Positions 1-38,943 of a stretch of 64,000 nucleotides of DNA are shown one piece after another (position 1 is the stretch's first letter; every line of letters starts with the position of its first letter). The DNA comes from Dyella subtropica (GTDB taxonomy: Bacteria; Pseudomonadota; Gammaproteobacteria; Xanthomonadales; Rhodanobacteraceae), in the NCBI RefSeq assembly GCF_026283965.1, contig NZ_JAPDPD010000004.1, positions 124,001 to 188,000 on the forward strand, read 5' to 3'. The notes below the pieces were generated by a model, which was given only the letters and a program-made list of their open reading frames with translations, was not told the origin of the DNA and made no database searches. The translations under genes and the position numbers were made by a program.

Positions 1-3000
1 AATGGACCGGTGCGATCGATGCCGGCTCACCATGGAAGGCGCAGGGCGTTTACCTGATCACCGGCGGCGCGGGCGGCCTGGGGCTGATCTTCGCCCGCGA
101 GATCGCTACCCACGCCAAGGGCGCAACGCTGATCCTGACTGGACGCTCGCCGTTGACGGAGGCCACCCAGGCCAAACTCAGCGAGCTGGAAGCGTTGGGC
201 GCGACGGCGCAATACCGCCAGCTCGACGTGGGCAATCGCGAGGCCGTGAGGCATGTGGTGCATGACGTCGCCGAAACCTTCGGCGGCTTGCACGGCATCA
301 TCCACAGCGCGGGTGTGTTGCGCGACAGCTTCATCATCAAGAAGACGCGCGAGGAACTGCACGAGGTGTTGCATGCCAAAGTGGCTGGCACGCTCCATCT
401 CGACGAAGCCAGCCGCGATCTGGCGCTCGACTGCTTCGTCTGCTTCGCATCCACATCGGGTGCGCTTGGCAATGTAGGTCAGGCCGACTATGCGGCAGCC
501 AATGCCTTCATGGATGCCTTCGCGCACCATCGTGCTGAGCTCGTGGCGCGAGGAGAGCGCCAGGGGCGCACGTTGTCGATCAATTGGCCGCTATGGGAAG
601 AGGGCGGCATGCAGGTCGATGCCGCTACGCGGCAGAGCATGACGCAGCAGACCGGGTTGATTCCATTGCGCACCGCCAGCGGCTGTGCGGCCTTGGTGCA
701 GGCCTTGTCGAGCGGCCTGTCGCAAGTGCTGGTGGCCGAAGGCGCGATACGCCGGTTCAAGTCCGCCCTGTCGGGTGTCGCGAAGCCCATCGCTGTGGCG
801 GCCAAGCCTGAAAGCTCGGCGCCGAGCGCGCTGTCTGACGAGTTGCAGGAAAAGGCCAAACGTTATTTCGTGCGGCTATTGTCGAGCACGCTCAAGCGGC
901 CGGCGCACAGCATCGATGCGCGCGCGCAGATGGAGGCCTACGGCATCGACTCCATCCTTGTGATGGACCTGACCCGAACCTTGGAGCAGGTGTTCGGCCC
1001 GCTTTCCAAGACGCTGTTATTCGAATACCAGACCATCGCCGCGCTGGCCGGCTATTTCTTGCAGCATCACCTCGCCCGCTTGAGCGAGGTGTTGGGTGAA
1101 ACGCTGCATGATGCCCCTGTAGCGACATCGTCGCGCGAGGAAGAGGCGCCGATCGTTGCCGCGACGACGACTCGCCGCCCGCGCTTCGGAGCGCGCGAAC
1201 CTGGCTTCCCGAACGTGATCGCGCCAACCAGGGACTTCGCGCACGCCAATCCGTCCACGACCACCAAGGATGTCGGCGAGATCGCGATCATCGGCGTAGC
1301 CGGGCGTTATCCGCAGGCGGCCAATCTGGAGCAATTCTGGGCCAATCTGAGCCAGGGCAAAGACAGCATCACCGAGATCCCGTCCGAACGCTGGGACTAC
1401 CACCTCTATTACGACGAAGACCGCAGTAAGCCCGGCAAGACCTATAGTCGGTGGGGCGGCTTCATCGACGGCGTCGACCTGTTCGATCCGCTGTTCTTCA
1501 ATATCTCGCCGCGTGAAGCGGAACTGATGGATCCGCAGGAGCGGCTGTTCCTGGAATGCGTGCATGCCACGCTGGAGGACGCGGGTTACACCAGGGAAAC
1601 CGTCACCCAACATGCCGGTGCGGGACAGGAAGGCAGCGTCGGCGTCTTCGTCGGTGTGATGTACGAGGAGTACCAGCTGTACGGCGCGCAGGAGCAGGCC
1701 AGGGGACGCAACCTGGCGATGCTCAACAGCGCTGCATCGGTCGCGAATCGCGTTTCGTACTTCTGCAATTTCAACGGCCCCAGCCTGGCGCTGGACACCA
1801 TGTGCTCGTCGTCGCTGACGGCGATTCACCTGGCCTGCCAGAGCCTGCAACGCGGCGGCTGCGCGGTGGCGATCGCGGGTGGGGTGAACGTATCGGTGCA
1901 CCCCAACAAGTACCTGATGCTCGCGCAAGGCAAGTTCATCTCCGGCAAAGGCCGCTGTGAGAGTTTCGGCGAAGGCGGCGAAGGTTATGTGCCCGGTGAA
2001 GGCGTGGGCGCGGTGCTGCTCAAGCCGCTGGCCCAGGCGAAGGCCGATGGCGATCACATCTACGGCGTGATCAAGGCCACTGCCATCAATCACGGCGGCA
2101 AGACCAACGGCTACACCGTGCCCAACCCGAACGCGCAGGCGAAGGTGATCGAGCAGGCGCTGCGCGAGGGCGGCATTGATGCGCGCGCCGTGAGTTACGT
2201 GGAAGCCCATGGTACGGGCACCAGCCTGGGTGATCCGATCGAGATCGCGGGGTTGTCCAAGGCGTTCCGAAACTGGACGCAGGACACGCAGTTCTGTGCG
2301 ATCGGTTCGGCCAAATCGAATATCGGGCACGGCGAAAGCGCGGCGGGCATTGCCGGTGTGACCAAGGTGCTGTTGCAGCTGAAGCATCGGCAACTGGCGC
2401 CGAGCCTGCATTCGAGCGTGCTGAATCCGAACATCGATTTTGGCGGCACGCCGTTCGTGGTGCAGCAGGAACTCGCTCCATGGCCGCGGCCGTGGGTGGA
2501 CAGCCGCGAATATCCAAGAATCGCCGGCATTTCGTCGTTCGGCGCGGGCGGCGCGAATGCGCACGTGGTGATCGAGGAATACGTCGCACCGGTTGTACCG
2601 GCAACGATGAGCGGCCCGGCGTTGATCGTGCTGTCGGCACGCCACGAAGACCGGCTGCGCGAACAAGTGCAGCGCTTGCTGGACGCCATCGCGTCGGACG
2701 GGACCATCGCACTGGCCGATCTGGCCTACACCCTGCAGGTCGGTCGCGAAGCGATGGAGGAGCGCCTTGCTCTGGTGGTGAACACGCTGGACGAGCTGCG
2801 CGAGAAGCTGAGCGCCTTTGTCGCTGGCGAAACGGCTGTCGACGACCTGTACCGCGGTCAGGTCAAACGCAACAAGGATGCGTTTGCCGCCTTGGCTGGC
2901 GATGACGACATCGGCGCCGCTGTCGAGGCGTGGATCGCCAAGGGCAAGTTCGGCAAGTTGCTCGACCTGTGGGTGAAGGGCCTCGCCTTCGACTGGCAGC

Positions 3001-6000
3001 GTTTGTATGGCGCTGAACGGCCGCGTCGTATCAGCCTGCCGACCTATCCGTTCGCCCGCGAGCGTTATTGGGTACAGACCGGGCCGACACAGCCAGCGAC
3101 TTCGTCCGGCACTGGCGCGGCCCTGCATCCGCTGCTGCATCGGAACACCTCGGACGTGACCGGGCTGCGTTTCAGCACGCGTTTGAGCGGCGACGAATTT
3201 TTCCTGGCTGATCACCTAGTGCAAGGCGCACGGATCCTGCCGGGCGTGGCGCAACTGGAAATGGCACGTTGCGCGGTCGGCGAGGCGATCGGCGCTGCGG
3301 GTCATATCGCGTTGAGCGATGTCGTGTGGGTGCGTCCGATCAAGGTGGGTGCCAAGGGGCTAGCGCTGGATATCGCGCTCTATCCGGAAGCAACCGGCGA
3401 CATCAGTTTCGAGATCTGCAGCGAAGACGAGAACGGTGAAGCTCTGGTGCATAGCCAGGGCGTGGCCTTGGTGGGTGCGACGGAAACGTCAGGCGCATCC
3501 ACGGCGCACGATCTGGCGGCGCTGCGCGAGCAGTGCGCGCAAGCGCATTGGAACGCCCAAGCGTGCTATGCGGCGTTCGAGCAGATGGGCTTGCACTATG
3601 GCCCGGGCTTCCAGGGCCTGCGCGAACTGTTCGTGGGATCACGGCAAGTCCTGGCGCGGATCACGCTGCCGGCCTCGGTGCAGGCCTCGCAAGATGACTA
3701 CGTACTGCATCCGAGTCTGCTGGACGCGGCGCTGCAAGCGACGCTGGGTCTGCAGATGGGTGCGGCGACGGAAGCCGGCGGGATGACGCTGATGCTGCCG
3801 TTTGCATTGGGCGCGCTGGAGGTACTGGCGCCATGCCCATCCGCCATGTGGGCCGTGGTGCGTCACAGCGCTGGTAGCAAGACGGGTGATGCGGTGCAAC
3901 GGCTCGACATCGACCTCTGCGATGAGCTCGGCGCTGTATGCGTACGCTTCAAGCAATTCAGCCTGAGGCCGGTGGTCGCCAGTGCTGAACATGGCGCACC
4001 GGTCAAGACGCTGCTGCTGCGTCCGACATGGGAGGCGCAACCTGTCGTGACGGCGACCGGTCGTGCGTTCGCGCGGCATCTGGTGGTGTTGTGTGGGCTT
4101 GATGCGGCCGATGCGGATCGCGTGCAGGCGCACATGCCGGGCGTGGTCTGCCTGGCCTTCGCCGTGAATCAAGATTTGGCGCAGCACTATGAATCGGTCG
4201 GCGGAGCCTTGCTTGAACAGATCCAGTCGCTCGGCAGCCAGCCGGGGCAGCACCTGATCCAGGTAGTGGTGCCGGATCAGGGCGCAGGCCGGACCATGGC
4301 GGGATTGGGCGGCATGCTGCGCACGGCGCAGTTGGAGAACCCGCGCATCGTTGGTCAGGTGATCAGTGTCGAACCCGCACAAGACGTGATGCAGGCGCTG
4401 CTGGACAACCGCGGCGGCGATGCGTCGCACGTGCGTTACGTCAACGGCGAACGTCAGGTCAGCGGCTGGGCCGAGCTGGCCGGCGCGGCCAACGCCGGCT
4501 CACCGTGGAAGGCACACGGCGTGTACCTGATCACGGGCGGCGCAGGTGGACTTGGCCTGATCTTCGCTCGCGAGATTGCGAGCCAGGCCAGGAACCCCGT
4601 GCTGATCCTCACGGGCCGCTCGGCGCTGAACGAAAGCATCCAGGCCCATATCCGCCAGCTGGAAGCCTTGGGCGCCGTGGTGCGCTACCACGCGATCGAC
4701 GTCACCGATGCCGCCGCGCTGACGCAACTGGTGCACAGCATTCCGGAAGAGTTTGAAAGTCTCGACGGCATCATCCACAGCGCTGGTGTGGTGCGCGACA
4801 GCTTCATCGTCAGGAAGACGCGGCAGCAATTGCATGAGGTGCTCAGCGCCAAAGTCACCGGCACGCTGAATCTCGATGAAGCCAGTCGCGACATGGTGCT
4901 CGACTGTTTCATCTGCTTCTCGTCCATCGCCGGTGCGATCGGCAATGTGGGTCAGGCGGATTACGCGACGGCGAATGCCTTCATGGATGCCTTTGCGCAT
5001 CATCGCGCCGAACGCGTGGCGCGCGGGGAACGCCACGGCCACACGCTGTCGATCAACTGGCCGCTGTGGGACGAGGGCGGCATGCAGGTGGATGCGGCCA
5101 CGCGCACGATGCTGAAGCAGCAGCTGGGCATGCAGCCTCTAGCCAGCGACAGCGGTCTACTGGCTTTGCGGCAAGCCCTGGCGAGCGGGTTGAACCAGCT
5201 GATGGTGGTGGCGGGTGATGCGGCCCGTATCCGCCAGGTGGTGTTGGGCAAGCCGCAGGAAAAGCTTGCGGTCATGCCGGCAGCGATCGATAGCCATGAC
5301 GGCAATGCGAAGGAGAGCGGGAGCGCTGCCGCTTTCTCGGAGCATCGCCTACAGGAGCGGGGCATACGGGGGCAGGTAAAGCGTGCGCTGGTAGGCATGG
5401 TGTCGTCGCTGATCAAGGTCAAGCCGGAGGATATCGACGGCGATACGGCCCTGAGCGAATACGGCTTCGATTCCATCTCGCTTACCGAATTCGGCAACGC
5501 GCTGAATCAGCAATACCGGCTCGAATTGAAGCCGACGATCTTCTTTGAATACCCGACGCTGGACGGTCTGGCCGACTATCTGGCGCGCGAACATCAGTCA
5601 GCGCTGACGCCGCGCTTTGCGTCGGCGAATAGCGCGGCATCTCCGGCACCGGCGACGGTGGTCGCGGTGCCGGCCACCGCTTCGGTGCATGAGCGCATCC
5701 GGTCCCGCCGGCACAGCCGTTTCAGCACGTCGGTGGCAGCGTCCGCTGCGAACCGGAACGCGGCGGTCGACGAACCGATCGCCATCATCGGCATGAGCGG
5801 TCAGTTCCCGCAGGCGCGGGACATCGAGACGTTCTGGCGCAACCTGGTCGAGGGCAAGGATTGCATCGGCGAGATTCCGCGCGAACGCTGGGATTGGCGT
5901 GCGTGGTACGGCGATCCGGCGAGGGAGCAGAACAAGACCAATATCAAGTGGGGCGGCTTCATCGATGGCGTCGATGAATTCGACCCGATGTTCTTCGGCA

Positions 6001-24000: not shown

Positions 24001-27000
24001 TCGACGCGCGCAGCGTGAGCTACGTGGAAGCGCAGGGCACCGGCAGCCACCTGGGCGACCCCATCGAGGTGGCCGGTCTGGCGAAGGCGTTCCGCCAGTG
24101 GACGCAGGACAAGCAGTTCTGTGCGATCGGCTCGGCCAAGTCGAACGTGGGCCACAGCGAGAGCGCGAGCGGCTTCGTCGCGGTCAGCAAGGTGCTGATG
24201 CAGATGAAGCACGGGATGCTGGCGCCGAGCCTGCACGCCGCCACGCCCAACCCGGAAATCCGCTTCGCCGATACGCCGTTCTTCGTGCAGCAGACCCTGG
24301 CCCCGTGGCCGCGTCCGCAGCTCGACGTCGACGGCCGCCGCCGCGAGTTCCCGCGGCGGGCGGGCATCTCATCGTTCGGCGCGGGCGGGGCGAATGCCCA
24401 CCTGGTGATCGAGGAATATGTCGCGCCAGCGGCGTCGGGCCGCGAAGGCCTGCTGGCCGGTCCCGCCATGATCGTGCTCTCGGCCCGCGATTCCGAACGC
24501 CTCAAGGCGCGGGCCGAACGATTGCTGGCGGCACTCGCCCCCGAACGCCGCGCCGCTGATCTGACGCTGGCCGACGTCGCGTACACCTTGCAAGTGGGCC
24601 GCGAGGCGATGGAGGAGCGGCTCGCTCTACTCGTGGAATCGCTCGACGAGCTGTGCGCGAAGCTGGCGGCGTTCGTCGTGGGCAGCAAGGACGTCGATGA
24701 CCTCTACACGGGCCAGGCGAAACGCAGCGCCTTCTCTATGCTCGCCGACGACGAGGACATGCAGACCGTCGTGCAGGCGTGGGTCGCCAAGGGCAAGTAC
24801 GGCAAGTTGCTGGACCTGTGGGTGAGGGGCTTCTCGTTCGACTGGAACACTCTCTACGGAAGCGGGCTCTACGCGGGCACGATGCATCCCCGCCGCGTCA
24901 GCCTGCCCACGTATCCGTTCGCGCGCGAGCGTTGCTGGACGGATGTCCGCTACCCGGACGCCGCCGATGCGTTGCCTGCCATGGGCGCCGTGCGAACGGA
25001 CGTCCCGCTTGCTGTTACCGCGGCGCGCACGGCCGATCCCGTGCAGACGATGATGCGCATCTGGTGCGAGTTGCTGGGCCGCCCGTCGGTGGCCATCGAC
25101 GACGATTTCTTCGAACTCGGTGGTCATTCCCTGCTGGCGACGCAGCTGGCCGCGCGCATTCGCGATGAGTTCGGGGTAGACGTGCTGGTGAGCACGATCC
25201 TGGAAGCGCCCACCCTGGGCGCACTCATCCAGCGCCTCTCCATGTTCGTGCCGACGCCCGATGGAGTGGATGTCCCGCAAGCAGTGGCGACGACGGCGGA
25301 TGCGTCGGTGGACGCGTCGTTCCCGCTGTCGTTCGCGCAGCAGCGGCTGTGGTTCCTCGACCAGTTGGAAGGGCACAGCCCCACGTACAACATTCCCGCC
25401 GCGGTTCGCCTGAAAGGCCGGCTGGGCGCCGACGCGTTGGAGGGCGCCCTCAATGACGTCGTCGCCCGCCACGACGCCTTGCGTGCCCGCTTTGGAAGCG
25501 TGGACGGCACGCCGGTGCAGCACATCGCCCCGCGTCTGGACCTGGCGCTCATGCTGCACGATCTGCGTGGCCTCGCGCCGAAGGAGCGCGAGGTGAAGAT
25601 GCGTTGGCTGATGCTCGACGAGGCCCGCACGCCCTTCGATCTGCAAGGCGGTCCGCTCGTTCGCGGCAGCCTGTTGCGGCTGGCCGACGAAGAACACCTG
25701 CTGCTGTTGACCATGCATCACATCGTCTCCGACGGCTGGTCCATGGGCATTCTCGTGCGCGAGCTCGGCGCCTTGTACGCCCATCGCAGTTTCGGCGGCG
25801 AGGCGTCGCTGCCGGAGCTGCCGATGCGTTACGTCGACTTCGCCCGCTGGCAGCGCGAATGGCTGAGCGGCGAGGTGCTGGAACGGCAATTGGGCTATTG
25901 GAAGAAACAACTGGCCGGTAGCCCGACGCTGCTGACCTTGCCGACCGATCGCCCACGCCCGCCCACCCAGGGCCAGGACGGCGCCGCACTGGCCTACGCC
26001 CTCCCGGCCGGCCTCAGCGCGAAGCTGCAGACGCTGAGCCGGAAGTCGCAGGGCACCTTGTTCATGACCCTCTGCGCCGCCTTCAATGTGTTGCTGGCCC
26101 GTTATTCCGGCCAGACCGACATCTGCATCGGCACGCCGATCGCCAACCGCAATCGCAGCGAGATCGAGGGCCTGATCGGCCTCTTCGTGAACACCCTGGC
26201 GCTGCGCACCCAGGTGGACCTGAGCGCCGGGTTCACCGACCTGCTCAAGCAGGTACGCGCCACCACGCTCGACGCCTATGCGCACCAGGACGTGCAGTTC
26301 GAACAACTCGTGGGTGCGGTGCAGCCCGAGCGCCACACCAGCTACTCGCCGTTGTTCCAGGTGATGCTGGTGTTGCAGAACACGCCGCTCGACCTGGCGT
26401 TGCCAGGGCTGGAGCTGGAGCTGGTGCCGCACGAGACCGTGACCGCCAAGTTCGACATCACCCTGACCCTGGCCGAAAGTCCACAGGGCCTGCACGGCAG
26501 CTTCGAGTACAACACCGACCTCTTCGACCGCGCGACGATCGAGCGGATGGGCGGCCACTTCACCCATCTCCTGCAGGCGATCGTGGCCGAGCCGGAGCGG
26601 CCCGTGGGCGAGTTGTCCATGGTCGGCGAGGCCGAGCGCCAACACCTCGTCTACGGCTTCAACGACACCACGAAGGTCTATCCGCTAGTGGGGCCGGACA
26701 CCCACACGCTGCACCAGCTGTTCGAGGTGCAGGTGGCGCGCGGCCCGAACCACACCGCGGTGGTGTATGAAGGCGCGTCGCTGACCTATGCTGAGCTCAA
26801 TGCCCGGGCGAACCGCCTGGCGCGCCACCTGCGCCGTCTCGGCGTGGGACCCGACGTGCTCGTCGGCCTGTGCACCGAGCGCTCGATCGAGATGATCGTG
26901 GGCTTGTACGCGATCGTGAAGGCCGGTGGCGCCTACGTGCCGCTCGATCCGACCTATCCAGCCGACCGCCTGGCGACCATCGTGGACGACGCGGCCCCCG

Positions 27001-29315
27001 CCGCGATCCTCACCCAGCGGCACCTGCGGCAGGCAGCGCCGTCGGTGCCCGGCGTGCCGGTGGTCTGCATCGACGGCGACACCGATACGTGGGCCGGCGA
27101 AGACGCTAGCAATCTCGCGAACACCACGCAGCCGGGCCACCTGGCTTACGTGATCTACACGTCGGGTTCCACCGGCAAGCCGAAGGGCGTCGGCGTCGAC
27201 CACCGCGGCATCGTCAACCGCCTGCAATGGATGCAGGAGGCCTACCCACTGACCGCCGCCGACCGCGTGCTGCAGAAGACGCCCTTCAGCTTCGACGTTT
27301 CGGTGTGGGAGTTCTTCTGGCCGCTGCTGGAAGGCGCCACGCTCGTCGTCGCCAAGCCCGGCGGCCATCAGGACGTGGCCTACCTGGCCGGCCTCATCGA
27401 CGCCGAAGGCATCACCACCACGCACTTCGTGCCGCCGATGCTCGACGTGTTCCTCAACGAGGTGGAGCCCGGCAGCGGGCGCTCGCTGCGCCAGGTGATG
27501 TGCAGCGGGCAGGCGCTGCCGATGGAACTGCAACAGCGCTTCTTCGCCACGTGGGACCACGTGGAACTGCACAACCTGTACGGCCCGACGGAAGCTTCGG
27601 TCGACGTCACCTACTGGCCATGCAGCAAGCACAGCCCGCTGAATTGCGTGCCGATCGGCAAGCCCATCGCCAACATCCAGATCCATATCCTCGACGACTT
27701 TCTTAACCCGGTGCCGATGGGCGTGGTGGGCCACCTGTACATCGCGGGCATCGGCCTGGCGCGCGGTTACGTCAACCGCCCGGACCTGACCGCGCAGACC
27801 TTCATCCCCAATCCGTTCAGTGCGACGCCAGGCGTGCGCATGTACCGGTCGGGCGACCTTGCGCGCTACCTGCCGGACGGCACTATCGAATACCTCGGCC
27901 GCAGCGACCACCAGGTGAAGATCCGCGGCCTGCGCATCGAGCTCGGCGAGATCGAGTCGACGCTGGCGGCGATGGACGCCGTGCGCGATGTGGTGGTGCT
28001 GGCACGGCCGGACGAACGTGGCATACCGCGCCTGGTGGCCTACCTGGTGGCACACGATGGCCAGGCGCTGCCGGACGCGGCCTCGCTGCGACGGACCCTG
28101 GCGCAGACGCTGCCCGACTACATGGTGCCGGAATACTTCGTGCCCCTGGCGGTGATGCCACTCACCTCCAATGGCAAGGTCGACCGCAAGGCGCTGCCCG
28201 CGCCGGAGATGGCGCACGACGAAGCCGAGCACGTCGCGCCGCGCACGGCGACCGAGAAGGCGATCGCGGCGGTGTGGTCGGAGCTGCTGAAGGTGGAGAG
28301 CGTTGGCATCACCGACGATTTCTTCGAACTGGGCGGTCACTCCCTGCTGGCGACGCAGCTCGTATCACAATTGCGCAAGCGCCAGGTCGCCGACATCGAG
28401 CTGCGCGACTTGTTCTCGCATGCCACGCTGGGCGCGCTGGCAGCGTTTGTCGATACGAGGAAGCAGGGCGGTGCGCACCCGAACCTGGTGCCCATCCGTG
28501 AGAAGGGATCGGCCGCGCCGCTGTTCCTGATTCATCCGATCGGCGGTGGCGTGCAGTACGCCTTCGACTTGTCGCAACACCTGGATGCCGACCAGCCCGT
28601 GTATGGCCTGGCGGTAGGCGAAACGCTGCAGGCGAGCATCGACAGCATGGCGTCGACCTATCTGGACGCCATCCGCGAAGTGCGTCCGTCCGGTCCGTAC
28701 CTGCTGGCCGGCTGGTCGCTGGGCGGCATGGTCGCCTACGAGATTGCTCACCGACTGCTGGCGGCGGGCGAGGATGTGCAGTTCGTAGGCATGATCGATA
28801 CCAGCGGCCCGTCGATGCGCGCGAAGCAGCGCGACGAACATCCGATCAAGCACGATGGGTGCCGGGCGCTGCTGAACTGGCTGCTCGACCTGAACCTTGC
28901 CGGTGATTGGCGCCGCCATCCCGCGTATCCCGAACTGATGGCGCGGGCTCAGCGCGGCGACCTCGACGGCATGATCGCGCTATGCATGGGCGCAGGGCTG
29001 GTGCCGCCCGGACTGGATACGGACGAGGTGAAGCGCACCGTGGCCCTGTACGAAGCCTGCGGCCGCGCAGCCGACGACTATCGGCCGCCCGCGGCGCAGT
29101 TGCCGGTGACGTACTTCGCGGCGGACCGCCGCGAAGGCGAGGACGTCGCGCTGGGTTGGCGCGAGTTGCTGGGCCGGCATCTGGAGGTATCGAGGATCGG
29201 CGGTTCGCATCTGTCGATCGTCAAGTCGCCGCTGGTCGAAAAGCTCGCGCGCGACATCTCGGAGCGGATCGGGCGCTATGCGCCGCGCCTCTCCTTCACC
29301 GCCACCAACCCCTGA
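1..29315 (+). CDS. Hybrid trans-AT polyketide synthase / NRPS, 5'-truncated by window edge
   Basis: A single open frame enters from outside the window (first complete codon at 3) and ends with TGA at 29313-29315, at least 9,770 residues. The frame already encodes a ketoreductase Rossmann loop around 60-75, so the TTG at 153 is not the true start. Domains by motif: 6 KS (active Cys codons at 1803, 6282, 9522, 13947, 17526, 23628), 4 DH, 5 KR, 1 C-methyltransferase, 7 ACP, 2 PCP, one condensation, one adenylation and one terminal thioesterase domain. No AT domain with a GHSxG motif is present between any KS and the next domain. Each KS is instead followed by a short linker ending in PTYPFARERYW-like sequence, typical of trans-AT synthases (known for the family), so a free-standing AT must be supplied from elsewhere. 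The protein is a cytoplasmic megasynthase activated by phosphopantetheinylation. Its product is not identifiable from sequence alone. Confidence 0.97.
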   Translation, partial: WTGAIDAGSPWKAQGVYLITGGAGGLGLIFAREIATHAKGATLILTGRSPLTEATQAKLSELEALGATAQYRQLDVGNREAVRHVVHDVAETFGGLHGIIHSAGVLRDSFIIKKTREELHEVLHAKVAGTLHLDEASRDLALDCFVCFASTSGALGNVGQADYAAANAFMDAFAHHRAELVARGERQGRTLSINWPLWEEGGMQVDAATRQSMTQQTGLIPLRTASGCAALVQALSSGLSQVLVAEGAIRRFKSALSGVAKPIAVAAKPESSAPSALSDELQEKAKRYFVRLLSSTLKRPAHSIDARAQMEAYGIDSILVMDLTRTLEQVFGPLSKTLLFEYQTIAALAGYFLQHHLARLSEVLGETLHDAPVATSSREEEAPIVAATTTRRPRFGAREPGFPNVIAPTRDFAHANPSTTTKDVGEIAIIGVAGRYPQAANLEQFWANLSQGKDSITEIPSERWDYHLYYDEDRSKPGKTYSRWGGFIDGVDLFDPLFFNISPREAELMDPQERLFLECVHATLEDAGYTRETVTQHAGAGQEGSVGVFVGVMYEEYQLYGAQEQARGRNLAMLNSAASVANRVSYFCNFNGPSLALDTMCSSSLTAIHLACQSLQRGGCAVAIAGGVNVSVHPNKYLMLAQGKFISGKGRCESFGEGGEGYVPGEGVGAVLLKPLAQAKADGDHIYGVIKATAINHGGKTNGYTVPNPNAQAKVIEQALREGGIDARAVSYVEAHGTGTSLGDPIEIAGLSKAFRNWTQDTQFCAIGSAKSNIGHGESAAGIAGVTKVLLQLKHRQLAPSLHSSVLNPNIDFGGTPFVVQQELAPWPRPWVDSREYPRIAGISSFGAGGANAHVVIEEYVAPVVPATMSGPALIVLSARHEDRLREQVQRLLDAIASDGTIALADLAYTLQVGREAMEERLALVVNTLDELREKLSAFVAGETAVDDLYRGQVKRNKDAFAALAGDDDIGAAVEAWIAKGKFGKLLDLWVKGLAFDWQRLYGAERPRRISLPTYPFARERYWVQTGPTQPATSSGTGAALHPLLHRNTSDVTGLRFSTRLSGDEFFLADHLVQGARILPGVAQLEMARCAVGEAIGAAGHIALSDVVWVRPIKVGAKGLALDIALYPEATGDISFEICSEDENGEALVHSQGVALVGATETSGASTAHDLAALREQCAQAHWNAQACYAAFEQMGLHYGPGFQGLRELFVGSRQVLARITLPASVQASQDDYVLHPSLLDAALQATLGLQMGAATEAGGMTLMLPFALGALEVLAPCPSAMWAVVRHSAGSKTGDAVQRLDIDLCDELGAVCVRFKQFSLRPVVASAEHGAPVKTLLLRPTWEAQPVVTATGRAFARHLVVLCGLDAADADRVQAHMPGVVCLAFAVNQDLAQHYESVGGALLEQIQSLGSQPGQHLIQVVVPDQGAGRTMAGLGGMLRTAQLENPRIVGQVISVEPAQDVMQALLDNRGGDASHVRYVNGERQVSGWAELAGAANAGSPWKAHGVYLITGGAGGLGLIFAREIASQARNPVLILTGRSALNESIQAHIRQLEALGAVVRYHAIDVTDAAALTQLVHSIPEEFESLDGIIHSAGVVRDSFIVRKTRQQLHEVLSAKVTGTLNLDEASRDMVLDCFICFSSIAGAIGNVGQADYATANAFMDAFAHHRAERVARGERHGHTLSINWPLWDEGGMQVDAATRTMLKQQLGMQPLASDSGLLALRQALASGLNQLMVVAGDAARIRQVVLGKPQEKLAVMPAAIDSHDGNAKESGSAAAFSEHRLQERGIRGQVKRALVGMVSSLIKVKPEDIDGDTALSEYGFDSISLTEFGNALNQQYRLELKPTIFFEYPTLDGLADYLAREHQSALTPRFASANSAASPAPATVVAVPATASVHERIRSRRHSRFSTSVAASAANRNAAVDEPIAIIGMSGQFPQARDIETFWRNLVEGKDCIGEIPRERWDWRAWYGDPAREQNKTNIKWGGFIDGVDEFDPMFFGISPKEAELMDPQQRLMMIHVWKALEDAGYAGPALSGSDTAIYVGTMASGYGHLISRARMAIEGYSSTGAVASVGPNRMSYFLNFHGPSEPVETACSSSLIALRRAMLAIARGDCSMAIAGGVNTIVNPELHVSFNKAGMLSEDGRCKTFSSEANGYVRGEGVAMLVLKRLSDAERDGDHIYGLVRGTAENHGGRANSLTAPNPKAQAAVVRRAYQQAGIDPRSVTYIEAHGTGTPLGDPVEINGLKAAFKELYAASGESEVAAPHCGLGSVKTNIGHLELAAGVAGVIKVLLQMKHRTLVKSLHSDSLNPYIDLDDSPFYVVQEAREWKAVRDAQGQVLPRRAGVSSFGFGGVNAHVVLEEYLAPASVPVANGPVAVVLSARNEERLREQAQQLLAFLDSPQAESEIALADLAYTLQVGREAMEERLGLVAGSHTELRDKLARFLSGDGGVDELYRGQAKRNKDALGPWSADEDMAHTVRSWVGKGKLSKLLDMWVKGYGLDWSALYGAHKPRRISLPTYAFARERYWVPAGDANLPTASSVGALLHPLVQRNSSNLLGPRFSSRFGGDEFFLADHVVLDKRVLPGVAQLEMARFAASEAMDGAGQLHLKDVVWSRPAVAGSEGLELHVSLYPEDSGDIGYEIHADPVDGEIVVYGRGVVTETIDDISPAPHDLEALRQQCTQVHLSAAQCYAAFQALGLNYGDGFQGLSELFVGEKLVLARITLPSAVQATKDRYVLHPSLLDAALQASIGLQMGAGAGDLTLMLPFAMGSLDVLAPCTTSMWAVVRHSSDRASGDAVHTVDIDLCDESGVPCLRFKQLGLRVLATPPTGGLVRDAKHEEATSHGKDRLVNDSTPLPLVETTAVRTVENVSDDIQERSTRYFVRFLSATLKLPTHRIDPRAQMETYGIDSLLVLDLTRALEKQFGPLPKTLFFEYQTIAALSGYFVQHHPAAMAALFGESRAAAAVVSVPSATKLDKPASAPMSRRSRYGARGRIGKDAGRDVGEIAIIGVAGRYPQAANLEQFWANLSQGRDSITEIPVERWDHTRYYDEDRNALGKTYGKWGGFIDGVDLFDPLFFNISPREAELMDPQERLFLECVHATLEDAGYTRDNVSQDGEVGVFVGVMYEEYQLYGAQEQARGRPIAVSGHPASIANRISYFCNFNGPSMALDTMCSSSLTAIHLACQGIQRGDCAVAVAGGVNVSIHPNKYLTLAQGRFISGKGRCESFGEGGEGYVPGEGVGAVLLKPLAQAKADGDHIYGVIRATAVNHGGKTNGYTVPNPNAQAKVIERALREGGIDARAMSYIEAHGTGTSLGDPIEIAGLSKAFGQWTQDKQFCAIGSAKSNIGHCESAAGIAGVTKVLLQLKHRQLAPSLHSAVLNPNIDFEATPFVVQQELAPWPRPLLDAGDEMREVPRIAGISSFGAGGANAHVVIEEYVAPVASQAGSGPALIVLSARQEDRLREQVQQLLEAITSGADIVLADLAYTLQVGREAMEERLALVVNSLDELREKLSAYLAGDTSIDELYRGQVKRHKDTLSALDGDDDMGAIAEAWVSKGKFGKLLDLWVKGLAFDWRRLYGADLPRRISLPTYPFARERYWIEVSASPSTDVATAGGLLHPLLHRNTSSFSVQRFSSHFSGEEFFLADHVVQGTRILPGVAQLEMARYAASIAIEETCALRLSDVAWLRPVTVGALGLDLHIALMPQDGGDIRFELYRDTEDGDTVTYSQGSVMVVADANAEVVATHDLAVLREQCTAASMSAAQCYAAFKQMGLHYGPGFQGLSELFVGPQQVLARITLPASAPDGYELHPSLLDAALQAAIGLVHPADDASEPTLWLPVALESLEVLAPCVADMWAVVRPSAGHVMGDASPKAWPVLDVDLCDEAGMVCVRFSQLELRASTITVEPDTALQTLLTTPVWEARSAAKRIENPAFARHLVMLCGLDAVDTDRVQADLPGAMFLTFAADQDLAQGYASAAAALLEQIQALSSQPGQHLIQVMVPSHGVDQTFVGLGGMLRTAQLENPRIVGQTIGIEPGQDVVQALLENRGGDASQVRYVHGVRQVVSWAELAGASDADSPWKANGVYLITGGAGGLGLIFAREIATHAKGATLVLTGRSQPTEATQAKLRELEALGASAQYRQLDVGDREAVMNLVHDIAATCGGLHGIIHSAGVLRDSFIIKKTREELHEVLRAKVAGTLHLDEASRELALDCFICFSSVSGARGNVGQADYAAANAFMDAFAHYRGDLATQGLRHGRTLSVNWPLWEEGGMQVDAATRQYLLQETGMTPLRRASGCVALVQALSSGRPQVLVAEGRLEQLKATLLKDSAVQPPPVVIEAHRAEPIAEDLREKTIRHLARLLSATLKLPAQKIDASARLEAYGIDSVMVMDLTQKLEKSFGSLPKTLFFEYQTMAALADYFLQSHRAVLVELLGEQTAIAASATVAKPGRSLAAAPTVPRRSRFDLRSAPVGIADTANIGIAIIGIAGRYPQARNLEEFWANLSQGRDSITEIPADRWDHALYFDADRNAPGKTYGKWGGFIDGVDRFDARFFNISPREAELMDPQERLFLECVHATLEDAGYTRENVAEDGDVGVFAGVMYEEYQLYGAQEQARGRFVAAPGSPASIANRISYFCDFNGPSMALDTMCSSSLTAIHLACESLARGGCSVAIAGGVNVSVHPNKYLVLAQGKFISAKGRCESFGEGGEGYVPGEGVGAVLLKPLAQAKADGDNIYGVIRATAVNHGGKTNGYTVPNPNAQAKVIERALRAGGIDARHVSYIEAHGTGTSLGDPIEIAGLSKAFRHWTQDTGYCAIGSAKSNIGHAESAAGIAGLTKVLLQLKHRQLAPSLHSAVLNPNIDFEATPFVVQQELAPWSRPVIDGREQPRIAGISSFGAGGANAHIVVEEYVSSATVRPSAGPAMVPLSARDEERLRERARELLACLATPGIELADLAYTLQIGREAMDERLALLVHSLDELRDGLTAYLAGETAIEGLYLGQARRGAGAFAALAGDDDMAGTVATWFARGKYDRLLDLWTKGLHVDWRRLHGDGEHLRRISLPTYPFARERHWFPVGAAQLPSRVESVSLSETTPAAPIETLMFRPAWTTRPFTADERAGESYASRLVLLCGVEDGQAARIREQFPEATCLVVSAGADLAVSFESAAATLLERLQALAVQTGRHLVQVVVPREGEWQAMAGLDGMLRTARLESSRLVGQLIAIDTGQDVVRALLDDGEAQRVRHVHGERQVGHWVEVQVEARPATQIASPWKDHGVYLITGGAGGLGLIFAHAIAGEVRNPVLVLTGRSAMNETVKGHVRQLEARGAVVRYHAVDVADADAVAALVRGIPEEFESLDGIVHSAGVVRDSFLVAKTRGELREVLRAKVAGTLNLDRASHDMALDAFICFSSIAAVMGSVGQADYASANAFMDAFVLERAERVARGERRGRTLSIDWPLWAEGGMQVDAATQTMMRQHLGMHPLSTEEGVQALRDAWASDASQLLVVSGEAERIREAVLGTVSQVAVKVPSAATEDEDIATEASSREAVWSSLAVLVSSLIKVKPEDLDGETTFSEYGFDSVSLTEFGNALNQHYRLRLTPTVFFEHPTLDGLTDHLVREHGVALAPTPVRTRVAANAAVASVSAPVATPAPAVDESILDKPGANKPSADESVADEPIAIVGMSGRFPHAADIDAFWNNLLDGRDCIDEIPPGRWDWRSIHGDPGRETHRTNIIWGGFIDGVDEFDPMFFGISPKEAELMDPQQRLAMIHVWKALEDAGYAGTALAGSDTAIYVGTGATGYGRLVDRAGLGGEAYASTGGVPSVGPNRISFLFDWHGPSEPVETACSSSLIALARGVAAIRRGHASVAVVGGVNTIVTPEAHISFSKAGMLSADGRCKTFSAEADGYVRGEGVAMLVLKKLSDAERDGDHIHGLVRGVAENHGGHANSLTAPNPTAQAEVIRKAHRQAGIDPRSVTYIEAHGTGTRLGDPVEVQGLKAAFGDEAVAAPYCGLGSVKTNIGHLELAAGVAGVVKVLLQMKHRTLVKSLHSDRLNPYLELDGSPFYVVREARDWTSLRDAQGQALPRRAGVSSFGFGGVNAHVLLEEYIAPAATKSPIDGPVPVLLSARDEERLREQVRLLLDFVTSADVDLADLAYTLQVGRAAMETRLALVVSSMDELRDRLRSIASGDGKEGRVHRGVASRGRKDAQHDARTVAAWVEARDFDKLLDAWVKGLALDWRALHGTRTPRRVSLPTYPFARGRYWVQDGTAPISSEPAEPAVSGREWLLLPTWEVVEPKLASPASGGRSLIIGGSSTQRAALRAVLPDATALEWPALADVAAIEYRLRASGSFDRLIWLVDADEASAADDDESLVAAQERGVIAGFRLVKALVALGFDQRALDWTIVTVQAQAVHGSDANAPRHAAVHGFAGAVAKEFAHWRLRLLDMAREGAWPVDIMSRLIDDHRGATLAWRGGQWFRQVLSPVDAASVEQGASPYREGGVYVVVGGAGGIGQAWSEHMIRTYRARIVWIGRRPEDDAIAQARTRLGAFGPMPLYVAADASDQSALERAREDVLARHGMIHGVVHAAIDLLDKSVAQMDEERLRAGLSAKVDASVRIGQVFGALSLDFMLFFSSLAGFVRAAGQGNYAAGCTFKDAYALHLAARLPYPVKVMNWGYWGSIGVVASGDYRERMARQGIGSIEPAEGMRALDRLLRSPMPQLGFMKATREDVRGGMFDLVGDVRVRLHPARFDSLAKTLAQGVAAVFPGDSAQFAAEGREIDRLALAILRGELQALGLMSTSLMGSSLMDSALTEHPRYARWLRHSLRWIAEAAPGAAAPSLDHAWAAWNERKTAWLGAGNVRQAQVTLVDTMLRALPAILQGKVEATAVMFPDSSMRLVEGVYQGNAVADHFNDVLCDAVCAFVAARVARDPAARLRIVEIGAGTGGTSARVLARLAPYAEHIGEYGYTDLSRAFLLHAKGKYGPHYPYLSYRLLDIGSPLEGQDIDAGAYDLVIATNVLHATKDIRESLRNAKALLGANGLLMLNELASCELWSHLTFGLLDGWWLYEDEALRIPGCPSLSPARWDAVLREEGYRHVHFPAEPAHGLGQQVIVAESDGVTLQKPVVKASAKASVPARVDVATVSRPVEAAAAPSRSNSDAAASLRERCRSRIAKLVGKALKMPVSEIDTAAGLDRYGMDSILVLELTNALRAAFEGIGMEDKVSSTLFFEHPTIDALVDHFVATEPAAMARWTGTDAGVTHQARRHPMLHRDTSDASARRFGSHFDGAEFFLADHRVQGRRVLPGVAQLEIARVAVQRATPDSARVRLGQIVWARPAFADETGLSLNVTLEPEQDGAFRFALHGDDGTVYSQGIASSDATLAEPAGRHDLASLRARCTVAHVGHERCYAVFERKGLQYGPAFRGVDELFVGEGEVLARISLPASVASSLHDYVLHPSLLDAALQASLGLQLAARGEDGIALALPFALDAVQAFAPCTAEMWAYVRHAEGTPASGGISKLDIDLCDADGAVRVRLQKLSLRTLEPKPSPQPSTTPSPKPSRETNKDRNTHDMNDSIGITSHHSHATGTLPATAVLHEKSILQLRKLISRRLSLPLDAIGAGVGFDEYGMDSIVVMELTSALREVFGEERISATLFFEHSDIEGLVDHLMQADPVALSRWTGLDAMPPAVHETPPAAPVYANGTEAREVLPVEATIPSVPAVAAPFDVAIVGMSGRYPGANDIHQFWENLAAGRHSVTEVPPERWEHGRFFDERKGQAGKTYTRWAGLLDDVQGFDRLFFNIAPGEARLMSPQERLFMQEVHAGIEDAGYTAANLSTGRKVGVFVGVTNEHYATGARFWSIANRISHLCNFQGPSLAIDTACSSSLTAIHLAIESLRSGDSEVAIAGGVNLIVAPTQLIDLASMTMLSSDDKCKSFAAGADGFVDAEAVGAFVLKPLHRAMADGDHVYGVIKGSAINSGGKTNAYLVPNPNMQAQLVIDALRHAGVDARSVSYVEAQGTGSHLGDPIEVAGLAKAFRQWTQDKQFCAIGSAKSNVGHSESASGFVAVSKVLMQMKHGMLAPSLHAATPNPEIRFADTPFFVQQTLAPWPRPQLDVDGRRREFPRRAGISSFGAGGANAHLVIEEYVAPAASGREGLLAGPAMIVLSARDSERLKARAERLLAALAPERRAADLTLADVAYTLQVGREAMEERLALLVESLDELCAKLAAFVVGSKDVDDLYTGQAKRSAFSMLADDEDMQTVVQAWVAKGKYGKLLDLWVRGFSFDWNTLYGSGLYAGTMHPRRVSLPTYPFARERCWTDVRYPDAADALPAMGAVRTDVPLAVTAARTADPVQTMMRIWCELLGRPSVAIDDDFFELGGHSLLATQLAARIRDEFGVDVLVSTILEAPTLGALIQRLSMFVPTPDGVDVPQAVATTADASVDASFPLSFAQQRLWFLDQLEGHSPTYNIPAAVRLKGRLGADALEGALNDVVARHDALRARFGSVDGTPVQHIAPRLDLALMLHDLRGLAPKEREVKMRWLMLDEARTPFDLQGGPLVRGSLLRLADEEHLLLLTMHHIVSDGWSMGILVRELGALYAHRSFGGEASLPELPMRYVDFARWQREWLSGEVLERQLGYWKKQLAGSPTLLTLPTDRPRPPTQGQDGAALAYALPAGLSAKLQTLSRKSQGTLFMTLCAAFNVLLARYSGQTDICIGTPIANRNRSEIEGLIGLFVNTLALRTQVDLSAGFTDLLKQVRATTLDAYAHQDVQFEQLVGAVQPERHTSYSPLFQVMLVLQNTPLDLALPGLELELVPHETVTAKFDITLTLAESPQGLHGSFEYNTDLFDRATIERMGGHFTHLLQAIVAEPERPVGELSMVGEAERQHLVYGFNDTTKVYPLVGPDTHTLHQLFEVQVARGPNHTAVVYEGASLTYAELNARANRLARHLRRLGVGPDVLVGLCTERSIEMIVGLYAIVKAGGAYVPLDPTYPADRLATIVDDAAPAAILTQRHLRQAAPSVPGVPVVCIDGDTDTWAGEDASNLANTTQPGHLAYVIYTSGSTGKPKGVGVDHRGIVNRLQWMQEAYPLTAADRVLQKTPFSFDVSVWEFFWPLLEGATLVVAKPGGHQDVAYLAGLIDAEGITTTHFVPPMLDVFLNEVEPGSGRSLRQVMCSGQALPMELQQRFFATWDHVELHNLYGPTEASVDVTYWPCSKHSPLNCVPIGKPIANIQIHILDDFLNPVPMGVVGHLYIAGIGLARGYVNRPDLTAQTFIPNPFSATPGVRMYRSGDLARYLPDGTIEYLGRSDHQVKIRGLRIELGEIESTLAAMDAVRDVVVLARPDERGIPRLVAYLVAHDGQALPDAASLRRTLAQTLPDYMVPEYFVPLAVMPLTSNGKVDRKALPAPEMAHDEAEHVAPRTATEKAIAAVWSELLKVESVGITDDFFELGGHSLLATQLVSQLRKRQVADIELRDLFSHATLGALAAFVDTRKQGGAHPNLVPIREKGSAAPLFLIHPIGGGVQYAFDLSQHLDADQPVYGLAVGETLQASIDSMASTYLDAIREVRPSGPYLLAGWSLGGMVAYEIAHRLLAAGEDVQFVGMIDTSGPSMRAKQRDEHPIKHDGCRALLNWLLDLNLAGDWRRHPAYPELMARAQRGDLDGMIALCMGAGLVPPGLDTDEVKRTVALYEACGRAADDYRPPAAQLPVTYFAADRREGEDVALGWRELLGRHLEVSRIGGSHLSIVKSPLVEKLARDISERIGRYAPRLSFTATNP
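3..1070 (+). other. PKS module 1 (partial): KR-ACP
   Basis: The catalytic half of a ketoreductase is present: the glycine-rich GGAGGLG loop near 62-82, a GVLRDS motif (the Asp is the one associated with B-type ketoreductases), and the Ser/Tyr/Asn catalytic set in FASTSG and DYAAAN around 445-500. The acyl carrier protein has its attachment serine in YGIDSI at 951-953. The KS of this module and the structural half of the KR lie upstream of the window. Expected output is a beta-hydroxy intermediate, or an alkene if a DH lies upstream. Confidence 0.9.
1275..5600 (+). other. PKS module 2: KS-ATd-DH-KR-ACP
   Basis: KS about 1275-2580, active Cys in DTMCSSS at 1803-1805, with both histidine motifs intact (EAHGTGT, KSNIGH). 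AT-docking linker about 2600-3085. DH about 3118-3980 with HLVQGARILP (the HxxxGxxxxP motif) near 3210 and DAALQ near 3720. KR about 4000-5260 with GGAGGLG and GVVRDS. ACP serine in YGFDSI at 5472-5474. Expected to add an alpha,beta-unsaturated two-carbon unit. Confidence 0.9.
5775..8850 (+). other. PKS module 3: KS-ATd-DH-ACP, no KR
   Basis: KS about 5775-7085 with active Cys in TACSSSLIAL at 6282-6284 and intact EAHGTGT and KTNIGH. Docking linker about 7110-7590. DH about 7630-8480, whose first motif reads HVVLDKRVLP: the conserved Gly of HxxxGxxxxP is Asp, and the YGPGF motif reads YGDGF, so dehydratase activity is uncertain. The DH runs directly into an ACP (serine at 8730-8732) with no ketoreductase. 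Either the beta-ketone is kept, a neighbouring KR acts in trans, or the DH acts on an upstream hydroxyl. Confidence 0.85.
9010..13270 (+). other. PKS module 4: KS-ATd-DH-KR-ACP
   Basis: KS about 9010-10315, active Cys in DTMCSSS at 9522-9524. Docking linker about 10340-10810. DH about 10850-11705 with an intact HVVQGTRILP motif and DAALQ. KR about 11735-12990 with GGAGGLG and GVLRDS. ACP serine at 13158-13160. Very similar to module 2 in its KS and to module 1 in its KR and ACP. Expected to install a double bond. Confidence 0.9.
13437..16850 (+). other. PKS module 5: KS-ATd-KR-ACP
   Basis: KS about 13437-14730, active Cys in DTMCSSS at 13947-13949. Docking linker about 14755-15220, ending PTYPFARERHW. 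KR about 15295-16555 with intact GGAGGLG, GVVRDS and DYASAN motifs. ACP serine at 16731-16733. No dehydratase, so a beta-hydroxyl is expected to remain unless it is removed in trans. Confidence 0.9.
17017..23010 (+). other. PKS module 6: KS-ATd-KR-cMT-ACP-DH-ACP
   Basis: KS about 17017-18310, active Cys in TACSSSLIAL at 17526-17528. Docking linker about 18345-18790. A divergent KR about 18840-20180 (GGAGGIG; NYAAGCTF, where the usual Asn four residues after Tyr is Cys, as in KRs that precede methyltransferases). C-methyltransferase about 20350-21340 with the SAM-binding motif EIGAGTGGTS near 20806-20835. ACP serine at 21588-21590. Then a DH about 21780-22610 placed after the ACP, with intact HRVQGRRVLP, and a further ACP with serine at 22878-22880. 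Expected to give an alpha-methylated and probably dehydrated unit. Confidence 0.85.
22681..22703 (+). other. Start-like element inside the PKS frame (possible gene-fusion scar)
   Basis: A Pro/Ser-rich linker after the trailing DH is followed by purine-rich AGGA-type sequence at 22681-22691 and an in-frame ATG at 22701-22703. From that point a complete ACP-KS0-PCP-C-A-PCP-TE protein could begin. It could be a relic of two once-separate genes or a live internal start. Spacing to the ATG is about 10 bases, so a functional RBS is only possible, not shown. Confidence 0.4.
23160..25240 (+). other. PKS module 7: non-elongating KS (KS0)-ATd-PCP
   Basis: KS about 23160-24425 keeps the active Cys (TACSSSLTAIH, 23628-23630) and the KSNVGH motif. 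The first catalytic histidine is replaced by Gln: EAQGTGS, Gln codon 24033-24035, where the five other KSs have EAHGTGT. Loss of this His abolishes decarboxylative elongation in known KS0 domains, which only transacylate. The docking linker is about 24465-24945. The carrier domain (FFELGGHSL, serine 25128-25130) is peptidyl-carrier-like and hands the chain to the condensation domain. Confidence 0.88.
25315..29312 (+). other. NRPS module 8: C-A(Ser)-PCP-TE
   Basis: Condensation domain about 25315-26650 with HHIVSDG near 25717. Adenylation domain about 26690-28195 with YTSGSTGKPKG. Its binding-pocket code, read by eye from FDVSVW, HFVPP, VMCSGQ and LYGPTEASVD, is D-V-W-H-M-S-L-V-D, close to the established serine code. 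PCP serine at 28341-28343. Terminal thioesterase about 28495-29300 with GWSLGG (Ser 28716-28718) and a late GGSHLS histidine motif. It adds serine to the polyketide and releases the product by hydrolysis or cyclisation. Confidence 0.87.
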
Positions 29316-32225: not shown

Positions 32226-32292
32226 GGAGCGCAAAAGTGAAGGCAAGGGCAGGGCGTGTGACGAAGACTTGGTGTGGGCCATGGGAGCCAAT

Positions 32293-33063
32293 GTGAAACC
32301 ACCTGGCCGTTGGTTCAGGCGCTTCGGTGAAAGCACCCACGCCCGTCGCCGCCTGATTTGCTTCCATCATGCCGGCGGTGGGCCTTCCTTGTTTCGCGAG
32401 TGGCATCGGCATTGCCCACCGGATACAGAGGTGTGGGCTGTCGCGATGCCCGGACGGGAAGCTCGCTTCGGTGAGAAACCTATCGATCAATTGCACGTGC
32501 TTGCGGGCATGTTGATCGACGTGTTGCCACTGGATCTGCCTTTCGCATTCTTTGGCCACAGCCTGGGTGCGATGGTCAGCTTCGAGCTGGCTCGGCAGCT
32601 GCACGAGCGTGAGCTGGCCGTTCCACAGCACCTTTTTGTATCGGCATGTTCCGCACCGCACCTATGCCACAGAGGCACATCGCGCGCCCATCTGAGCGAT
32701 GCCGAATTGTTGCGGCTACTGGAAGGTTTCGGCGGCACGCCGAAGGAAGTTCTTGGGCATCCCGAATATCTTGAGATGGTGCTGTCGATACTGCGCGCGG
32801 ACTTCAATCTCATCGACGAATATCTCGTGCCGGACGACTGTGACGCCCGCTTTCCCATCACGGCGTATGCCGGCACCCGAGATGTCCACGTCAACCCAAT
32901 TAAGATACTGGCCTGGGATCGATGGGCGACACATGATTTTGTCTGCCACCAGTTCGACGGCGATCACTTCTACCTTACCGAACACCGCGAAGCGCTCATC
33001 AACGATATGTTCGGCAGATGGCGCAAGAGCGATGTATCGAAGGCCGCTGATGCTTGTGCGTGA
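32293..33063 (+). CDS. Type II thioesterase
   Basis: A 256-residue alpha/beta hydrolase of the GrsT/external thioesterase family, which removes mis-primed acyl groups from carrier proteins of PKS and NRPS lines. The motifs are FHHAGGG (oxyanion side) at about 24-30, the nucleophile elbow FGHSLGA with Ser90, GTRDVHV (acid) and FDGDHFYL (His). The chosen start is GTG at 32293, which has GGGAG five bases upstream; an ATG at 32281 in the same frame is the alternative. It follows the MATE gene by 67 bases and precedes the phosphopantetheinyl transferase by 9 bases. It is distinct from the integrated TE at the end of the PKS. Confidence 0.93.
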   Translation: MKPPGRWFRRFGESTHARRRLICFHHAGGGPSLFREWHRHCPPDTEVWAVAMPGREARFGEKPIDQLHVLAGMLIDVLPLDLPFAFFGHSLGAMVSFELARQLHERELAVPQHLFVSACSAPHLCHRGTSRAHLSDAELLRLLEGFGGTPKEVLGHPEYLEMVLSILRADFNLIDEYLVPDDCDARFPITAYAGTRDVHVNPIKILAWDRWATHDFVCHQFDGDHFYLTEHREALINDMFGRWRKSDVSKAADACA

Positions 33064-35472: not shown

Positions 35473-35483
35473 TCAGCAAGTCC

Positions 35484-35511
35484 GGGCAGGGCCGTCGATT
35501 CGGCCCTGCCC
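35484..35511 (+). terminator. Strong hairpin between pilin and chaperone genes
   Basis: A perfect 10-base stem (35484-35493 with 35502-35511) and an 8-base loop begin 11 bases after the pilin stop. There is no T-run after it, so it is more likely a partial terminator or an mRNA 3'-end stabiliser that raises pilin expression over the downstream genes than a full intrinsic terminator. Confidence 0.7.
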
Positions 35512-35646
35512 ACCTCCTCTATTCGATCAAGCACGGGGCAACGGCGTCGCTGATGCCCGAGAGATCTACACGCCTAAAGCACCCCAACCACCCGACGAAT
35601 CGCTCGTCATCAACGCCAGGTTGGCTCCCACATCAGGAGAAAGACC

Positions 35647-36369: not shown

Positions 36370-36410
36370 CGACGACACACGCCCGCCGCGGCCCCAGAGA
36401 GACCACGACG

Positions 36411-38936: not shown

Positions 38937-38943
38937 GGACGCC

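Follow-up and report, generated by a model that had tools for sequence, protein, structure and literature searches.

A single-protein trans-acyltransferase polyketide-serine assembly line of Dyella subtropica, likely of recombinant origin, and its relatives in the Rhodanobacteraceae

The disorazole line is a trans-acyltransferase (trans-AT) polyketide synthase (PKS) that ends in a serine module of the nonribosomal peptide synthetase (NRPS) type followed by a thioesterase (TE), with a module order different from that of the line described here; the conglobatin line also terminates in a serine NRPS module and a TE. Our subject is a megasynthase gene of Dyella subtropica which enters, from its left edge, a window of 64,000 nucleotides (positions 124001-188000 of contig C41 of the source genome, G000, a draft of 46 contigs and 4.95 Mb). 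We consider it likely that this gene specifies a single-protein trans-AT PKS-NRPS line, with AT activity supplied in trans, a non-elongating ketosynthase (KS0), serine and a TE, and that its present form has arisen by recombination. With the solanimycin system of Dickeya solani, as described in the sections of PMC10204066 covered here, the locus shares a trans-AT polyene PKS, a serine NRPS module, a cytochrome P450, a MATE exporter and an AT together with an acyl-hydrolase-like domain. The solanimycin system differs in having one PKS gene and three NRPS genes, a serine module proposed to be iterative, and condensation (C) domains of the HHxxDDx type (same sections of PMC10204066).

The megasynthase is a single open frame of 10,886 amino acids (C41:120655-153315, which is -3345 to 29315 in window positions, used from here on; features are on the forward strand unless stated), of which 1-29315 lies in the window. 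An earlier note on this stretch had followed the frame correctly to 29315 from the first base of the window; the gene itself begins 3,345 bases upstream of the edge, and this 5' part holds the ketosynthase KS1 and the dehydratase DH1. Pfam searches of eight chunks covering the protein gave the order KS-DH-KR-ACP, KS-DH-KR-ACP, KS-DH-ACP, KS-DH-KR-ACP, KS-KR-ACP, KS-KR-MT-ACP-DH-ACP, KS0-PCP and C-A(Ser)-PCP-TE (KR, ketoreductase; ACP and PCP, acyl and peptidyl carrier proteins; MT, methyltransferase; A, adenylation). The KR is missing from module 3, and in module 6 two ACPs enclose the DH. As the earlier note had proposed, the modules contain no AT domain (Acyl_transf_1 had no match in any of the eight chunks), and a free-standing AT gene, which the note had suggested seeking nearby, was located directly upstream (C41:116697-120443). 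Its 1,248-residue product has two AT stretches and matched the NCBIfam models FabD (354.8 bits, cut-off 260.9) and PfaD (619.1 bits, cut-off 449.25), and was therefore assigned as AT-AT-ER (ER, enoylreductase); the serine motif reads GASLG in AT1 and GHSLG in AT2.

Six of the seven KSs have the Cys-His-His active site, and in KS7 it is Cys-Gln-His, the His of the HGTGT motif being replaced by Gln. KS7 would thus be a non-elongating KS0, and the line would consist of six elongating modules and a KS0-PCP unit, not of seven modules feeding a KS0 as formerly said: there are seven KSs, and the seventh is itself the putative KS0. The lost His and the PCP-type carrier behind it support the note's view of a non-elongating last KS followed by a PCP. 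Its terminal C-A(Ser)-PCP-TE was likewise recovered, by Pfam, by a GGHSL motif in the PCP and by the A-domain specificity code DVWHMSLVD.

Comparison with related lines revealed an abrupt change of affinity inside the megasynthase. In windows of 200 residues the protein is 46-93% identical to the line of Dyella sp. OK004 (G089) up to residue 5600 and 68-96% identical after it, and identity to a second line, that of genome G100, exceeds identity to G089 in 27 of the 28 windows before this point and in none of the 27 beyond it (in five of these later windows G100 lacks the KR-MT-ACP part). Residues 1-5590 are 66% identical to G089 and 74% to G100; for residues 5595-9540 the values are 86% and 67%. 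At the DNA level, identity to G089 jumps from 74% to 92% between the neighbouring 400-base pieces starting at 13201 and 13601, and in the protein alignment the change falls within the ACP4-KS5 linker or at the IAII motif of KS5 (residues about 5540-5596). The putative crossover interval accordingly spans 13272-13442, and KS5 (13443-14555, DTMCSS) opens the G089-like block.

Phylogenetic analysis gave the same picture. The tree of the front part (residues 1-5590) joins the window line to G100 (support 99/99), its grouping with G089, G188 (Rhodanobacter sp. OK091), G086 and G145a being rejected by the approximately unbiased (AU) test (p = 1.6e-5). In the tree of the back part (from KS5 to before the C domain), the window line groups with G089 and G188 (96/98), a grouping with G100 being rejected (AU p = 3.3e-5). 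Once the window line is removed, the other nine lines branch alike in both trees as far as these are resolved, and the trees of the KSs (a quick tree) and DHs agree with a mosaic. In RpoB, the window genome is 98.9% identical to G089 at the amino acid level, the closest of eight genomes validly compared; RpoB of G114, G103 and G119 was left out of this comparison. The AT-AT-ER protein, only 65% identical to G089 and 77% to that of G085, shows the same shift as modules 1-4. Behind the megasynthase, the cytochrome P450 (29326-30837) and the MATE exporter (30771-32225), which closes the G089-like block, are 95% and 92% identical to G089. Of the stretches compared, G112 (80%) and G100 (67%) alone have a match to the type II TE (32269-33063), and G174 (78%), where it lies on the opposite side of the AT gene, and G171 (66%) alone have one to the 4'-phosphopantetheinyl transferase (PPTase; 33073-33846); the G089 stretch, which extends about 2.5 kb beyond its MATE gene, gave no match to the type II TE. 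By sequence affinity, then, AT-AT-ER and modules 1-4 appear to belong with lines of the G100/G112/G085 type, and KS5 through MATE with the sister Dyella line G089. The simplest reading is that a KS5-MATE block like that of Dyella sp. OK004 would have been joined to the AT-AT-ER gene and modules 1-4 of another lineage, and so set in its cluster.

The remaining domains were placed by Pfam and, for the KSs, by their active-site residues. The KR and ACP1 of module 1 occupy 45-602 and 864-1055. Module 2 is composed of KS2 (1278-2411; DTMCSS, C-H-H), DH2 (3126-3986), KR2 (4518-5075) and ACP2 (5385-5582), and module 3 of KS3 (5772-6914; ETACSS, C-H-H; best single-KS chain in PDB, PksJ 4na1), DH3 (7638-8477; motif HVVLDKRVLP, with Asp at the usual Gly place) and ACP3 (8655-8834). 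They are followed by KS4 (9015-10130; DTMCSS, C-H-H), DH4 (10857-11708), KR4 (12252-12809) and ACP4 (13074-13262). In module 5, which has no DH, KR5 (15819-16376) and ACP5 (16647-16841) stand behind KS5. Module 6 comprises KS6 (17016-18137; ETACSS, C-H-H), KR6 (19488-20024), the MT core (20802-21116), ACP6a (21486-21674), DH6 (21786-22628) and ACP6b (22791-22991). KS7 (23166-24239; C-Q-H) and its carrier (25050-25238; GGHS) lead to the C domain (25320-26651; HHIVSDG), the A domain (26721-28178), the terminal PCP, which is the second PP-binding stretch (28263-28454; GGHSL at residue 10560), and the TE (28518-29264; GWSLG).

The His and Asp motifs are kept in all five DHs; DH3 and DH6 were considered as enoyl-isomerases, and this was rejected as both retain the two motifs. 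All five KRs contain GGxGG[LI]G; their Tyr motif was found by pattern in three and is legible as YATAN and YASAN in the other two. The MT of module 6 is the sole methyltransferase, in line with the single methylation noted before. Its seven PDB matches below 1e-8 are headed by DisA (6cca), followed by AprA MT2 and CurJ, all of which we take to be carbon-methylating, and the same is probable for this domain. The A-domain code presumably denotes serine, since it equals the serine code at eight of nine residues. The C domain, with its ordinary HHIVSDG motif, has C domains and not cyclisation domains as its best PDB matches, which makes an oxazole unlikely. PDB comparison of the KSs covered KS1, KS2, KS3 and KS7. 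The highest-ranking chains for the last three included 7zma as well as entries labelled AT-less, PksJ, PksL or RhiE; KS1 matched trans-AT chains more weakly, with cis-AT chains only little lower.

From these data a biosynthetic route can be proposed. AT2, a FabD-type malonyl transferase, would load malonyl units in trans, and AT1 is probably a proof-reading acyl hydrolase. The six elongating modules would build a mostly unsaturated chain, to which module 5 would contribute a hydroxyl and module 6 an alpha-methyl. If an acetyl starter is assumed, modules 1, 2 and 4 would each leave an olefin, module 3 an olefin or a ketone, module 5 the hydroxyl and module 6 an alpha-methyl olefin, before serine is added. 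KS7 would hand the chain unextended to the PCP-type carrier, the C domain would couple it to serine, and the TE may free an N-acyl-serine or its lactone. Assuming an acetyl starter, reduction of the module 3 ketone by a KR and no P450 oxidation, C18H25NO5 would be the simplest guess for the product. Oxidation would be the task of the P450, export that of the MATE protein, editing that of the type II TE and arming of the carriers that of the PPTase.

Three alternatives to this account were weighed. That there was no recombination, the front part having evolved faster in the window strain during vertical descent with the G089 line, strikes us as very improbable. It would suit the identical domain order of the two lines, central KS windows that are 85-96% identical to G089 in both parts, and two pieces inside KS4 best matched by sister-type lines; yet the front tree (99/99, with the G089/G188/G086/G145a grouping rejected) joins the window line to G100, faster evolution alone does not give the switch from 27 of 28 windows closer to G100 to none of 27, and the step in DNA identity between adjacent 400-base pieces is sharp. 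Moreover, the AT-AT-ER protein shows the same shift, and for the type II TE and PPTase the matches lie in other lineages. The two other alternatives concern the product, and both are considered unlikely. A serine module acting iteratively, with several serine-derived residues in the product, is suggested by solanimycin, where one serine module, reported to work five times over, occurs together with a trans-AT PKS, a polyene acyl group, a P450 and a MATE exporter (sections of PMC10204066 covered here). In the window line, however, the TE stands directly after one NRPS module, the C domain has HHIVSDG and not the HHxxDDx reported in those sections, and the P450 reaches 24.7 bits in the model of the solanimycin P450 (SolI), far below its cut-off of 850; in sister lines, longer peptides are encoded by separate modules.

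A macrodiolide of the disorazole or conglobatin kind, in which the TE joins two acyl-serine chains and serine becomes an oxazole, is about as doubtful as serine iteration. The affinity of the MT to DisA, its closest PDB sequence, and the serine-TE ending of both of those lines speak for it, but the HHIVSDG motif and PDB matches of the C domain make the oxazole unlikely, leaving a diolide without oxazole as the possible form. We favour the recombinant line releasing a single acyl-serine chain, although several points weigh against this interpretation. The AU groups were chosen after the KS tree and the sliding identities had been seen, so that their p-values are post hoc. Two 400-base pieces in KS4 (starting at 9201 and 9601), to the left of the join, have G086 and G188 as best matches (87% and 88%); KS2, KS4 and KS5 are mutually 87-89% identical, and in some lines KSs of the same line cluster in the quick tree (those of modules 2 and 4 in G103 and in G114, and of modules 2 and 5 in G119). 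Some conversion between KSs is therefore likely, and it could blur a breakpoint located at a KS. The first domain found is a KS, lying 26-117 residues into the frame in the 15 annotated lines with a start (profiles for eight domain types); a loading module is thus not evident, and any starter named is a guess. As module 3 has no KR, its ketone may stay or a KR may act from elsewhere. No product is assigned to the line, and the genome is a draft in 46 contigs.

The possibility that the assembly had collapsed two similar lines was examined separately. When the genome was probed with KS0, 21 places matched, of which 7 belong to this line, 3 to a complete line on contig C13 and 11 to frames also holding AT; a probe from the G089 front part had 9 matches, all within the C41 and C13 lines. 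With every place accounted for and no leftover halves, such a collapse is unlikely and was rejected.

The C13 line is a second single-frame trans-AT PKS-NRPS of G000 (C13:69358-94871, 7,996 amino acids), with three PKS modules, codes for Thr-Ala-Gln and no KS0-PCP. None of the genome's 13 AT places is on contig C13, so this line may share the AT-AT-ER protein of C41.

The window line is a recurring member of a family of lines, not an isolated one. With its A-PCP-TE end as query, 13 loci were matched, of which eight are in Rhodanobacteraceae (Dyella sp. OK004, Dyella sp. SG609, Dyella tabacisoli, Rhodanobacter sp. OK091 and A1T4, Pinirhizobacter soli, Luteibacter sp. dw_328 and L. rhizovicinus) and five, at 40-49% identity, in unrelated bacteria. 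The KS0-PCP query at 1e-200 matched 19 of the 233 genomes of the family (its own included), or 17 after leaving out G224 and G230, whose matches cover the KS only (55-57%). AT-AT-ER at 1e-150 matched 17 of the 233, or 16 without G227 (ER only), and all 16 fall within the KS0-PCP set of 17. Among 398 genomes sampled from the order, 14 had KS0-PCP-type matches at 1e-220, all in the same family; in 369 genomes sampled from the class, the sole match beside the genome itself was at 57% and covered the KS only. In a plasmid collection, the KS0-PCP-C stretch had no close relative, all 1,491 matching records being below 60% identity. Three of the five other genomes of the genus had no KS0-PCP match, which indicates a patchy distribution.

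Sixteen lines from 13 genomes were annotated, of which 15 include the start and that of G112 is truncated at the end of its contig; the lines of G084, G085 (that on C15/C18), G171 and G174, which are in pieces, and G113 are outside these counts. The domain order is identical in seven of the 16 (window, G089, G188, G086, G145a, G114 and G119), in genomes assigned to Dyella, Rhodanobacter, Pinirhizobacter and Luteibacter. The G103 line has one extra NRPS module, and those of G078, G100 and G112 contain three or four NRPS modules and have KS-DH-ACP in place of the window's KS-KR-MT-ACP-DH-ACP. Five others, among them the C13 line, are short and combine three amino acids with only two or three elongating PKS modules. 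The 16 lines thus form a natural series on one scaffold, varying in elongating PKS modules (2-6 in whole lines), in amino acids (1-4), and in the presence or absence of the KS0-PCP adapter and of the KR-MT-ACP insert.

A further observation was made for G089 and G188, which belong to different genera: their front parts are 90% identical (RpoB, 95.4%), compared with only 80% between G089 and G086 of the same genus (RpoB, 96.4%). Transfer between genera is therefore likely.

Across the family, C-Q-H was found in 14 of 14 KSs that immediately precede a PCP-type carrier followed by a C domain, and C-H-H in all 76 others of the 90 KSs; the carrier behind the C-Q-H KSs reads GG[HDQN]S in 14 of 14. 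The KS0-PCP is missing from the C13 line of G000 and the C9 line of G085, where KS-DH-KR-ACP passes straight to C. The adapter is thus common at the PKS-NRPS boundary and absent from some lines, which fits a KS adding no carbons. The DH6 domains of the eight KR-MT lines form one clade of 11 with the DHs of KS-DH-ACP in G078, G100 and G112 (SH-aLRT support 100), as do the corresponding 11 KSs (98; both quick trees). These shared clades suggest that a KS-DH-ACP module has either gained the KR-MT-ACP unit by insertion or lost it.

Another feature of the family concerns a second C domain with the motif HHLIDDN, present in seven of the 16 lines (G000b, G071, G085b, G100, G100b, G112 and G145b) and in each case directly behind a module for Thr (five lines) or Ser (two lines); where a C domain follows another Ser module, in three cases, it has HHIVSDG. 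No C domain of the HHLIDDN or HHxxDDx type occurs in the window line. In solanimycin, HHxxDDx C domains were reported as candidates for serine dehydration (sections of PMC10204066 covered here). By analogy, we infer that the products of these seven lines would carry dehydrobutyrine or dehydroalanine at position one.

Directly behind the cluster, fimbrial-type genes (34798-39525: DUF1120 protein, chaperone and usher) were found, which are taken as unrelated to the assembly line. Further along, an ABC transporter gene (50218-51864) adjoins a separate cis-AT NRPS/PKS cluster on the reverse strand (51842-64000, continuing to C41:206976), which includes an Asp/Glu racemase, an asparagine-synthase-like protein, a glycosyltransferase, a 3,067-residue NRPS and a 5,807-residue hybrid. 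Elsewhere in the genome (C6:90885-119429), an open frame of 10,865 amino acids, close in size to the megasynthase, has seven AT places and is a cis-AT PKS.

With bacillaene and other trans-AT lines (those of PksJ, PksL and RhiE, which we take to be trans-AT), the window line shares AT-less modules, a free AT gene and KSs with these chains among their best PDB matches; it differs in its single gene and its serine-TE terminus. No beta-branching gene was present among the neighbour genes scanned with Pfam. The putative polyketide synthase 7zma/7zm9/7zmc had the highest PDB score for KS2 and KS7, but in alignment with KS7 its KS shows an intact HGTGT His. The disorazole line shares the MT nearest to DisA, and in place of a cyclisation domain the window line has an ordinary C domain. 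No characterised pathway with a near-identical module order was found among the papers listed in the literature searches, which did not extend to curated cluster collections. The earlier suggestion of an undescribed family thus holds in that no described match was found there, and has to be qualified in that the order recurs in seven of 16 lines. The kind of assembly line is already known, and the product family looks undescribed within that literature; any compounds that these lines of Rhodanobacteraceae make would probably be new acyl-serines and acyl-peptides of polyene type.

The position of the join can also be compared with published exchange rules. The transPACT study describes exchange of module blocks in trans-AT hybrids and states that earlier work placed joins behind KSs, and the main text covered here has no mention of Dyella, Luteibacter or Rhodanobacter (PMC7930024). 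In the sections of PMC11260071 covered, the motif LPTYPFx5W behind the KS is the productive exchange site, fusion upstream of OocR KS12 was not productive, and productive truncated disorazol lines made at a site upstream of a KS are cited. As in these hybrids (same parts of PMC7930024 and PMC11260071), a block was apparently exchanged between related lines in the window line; the published joins are behind the KS, whereas the join here maps to residues about 5540-5596, before KS5, and not to LPTYPFx5W. Module 4 is KS-DH-KR-ACP in both G089 and G100, so that KS5 would meet the same kind of substrate. In genomes G100 and G112, the lines of the G100/G112 type end in four amino acids. We give an even chance to the proposal that the window line is a functional natural hybrid, in which a G100/G112-type line received the KS5-MATE back part of a Dyella-type line (about 19 kb, with the P450 and exporter) by one double crossover, the join before the KS being tolerated as both sides present the same kind of intermediate. 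These natural parts make it possible to test the purpose of the KS0-PCP adapter and whether a pre-KS join works when the same intermediate is handed over. If the proposal is true, the window line would provide a natural exception to the rule by which productive joins sit behind the KS.

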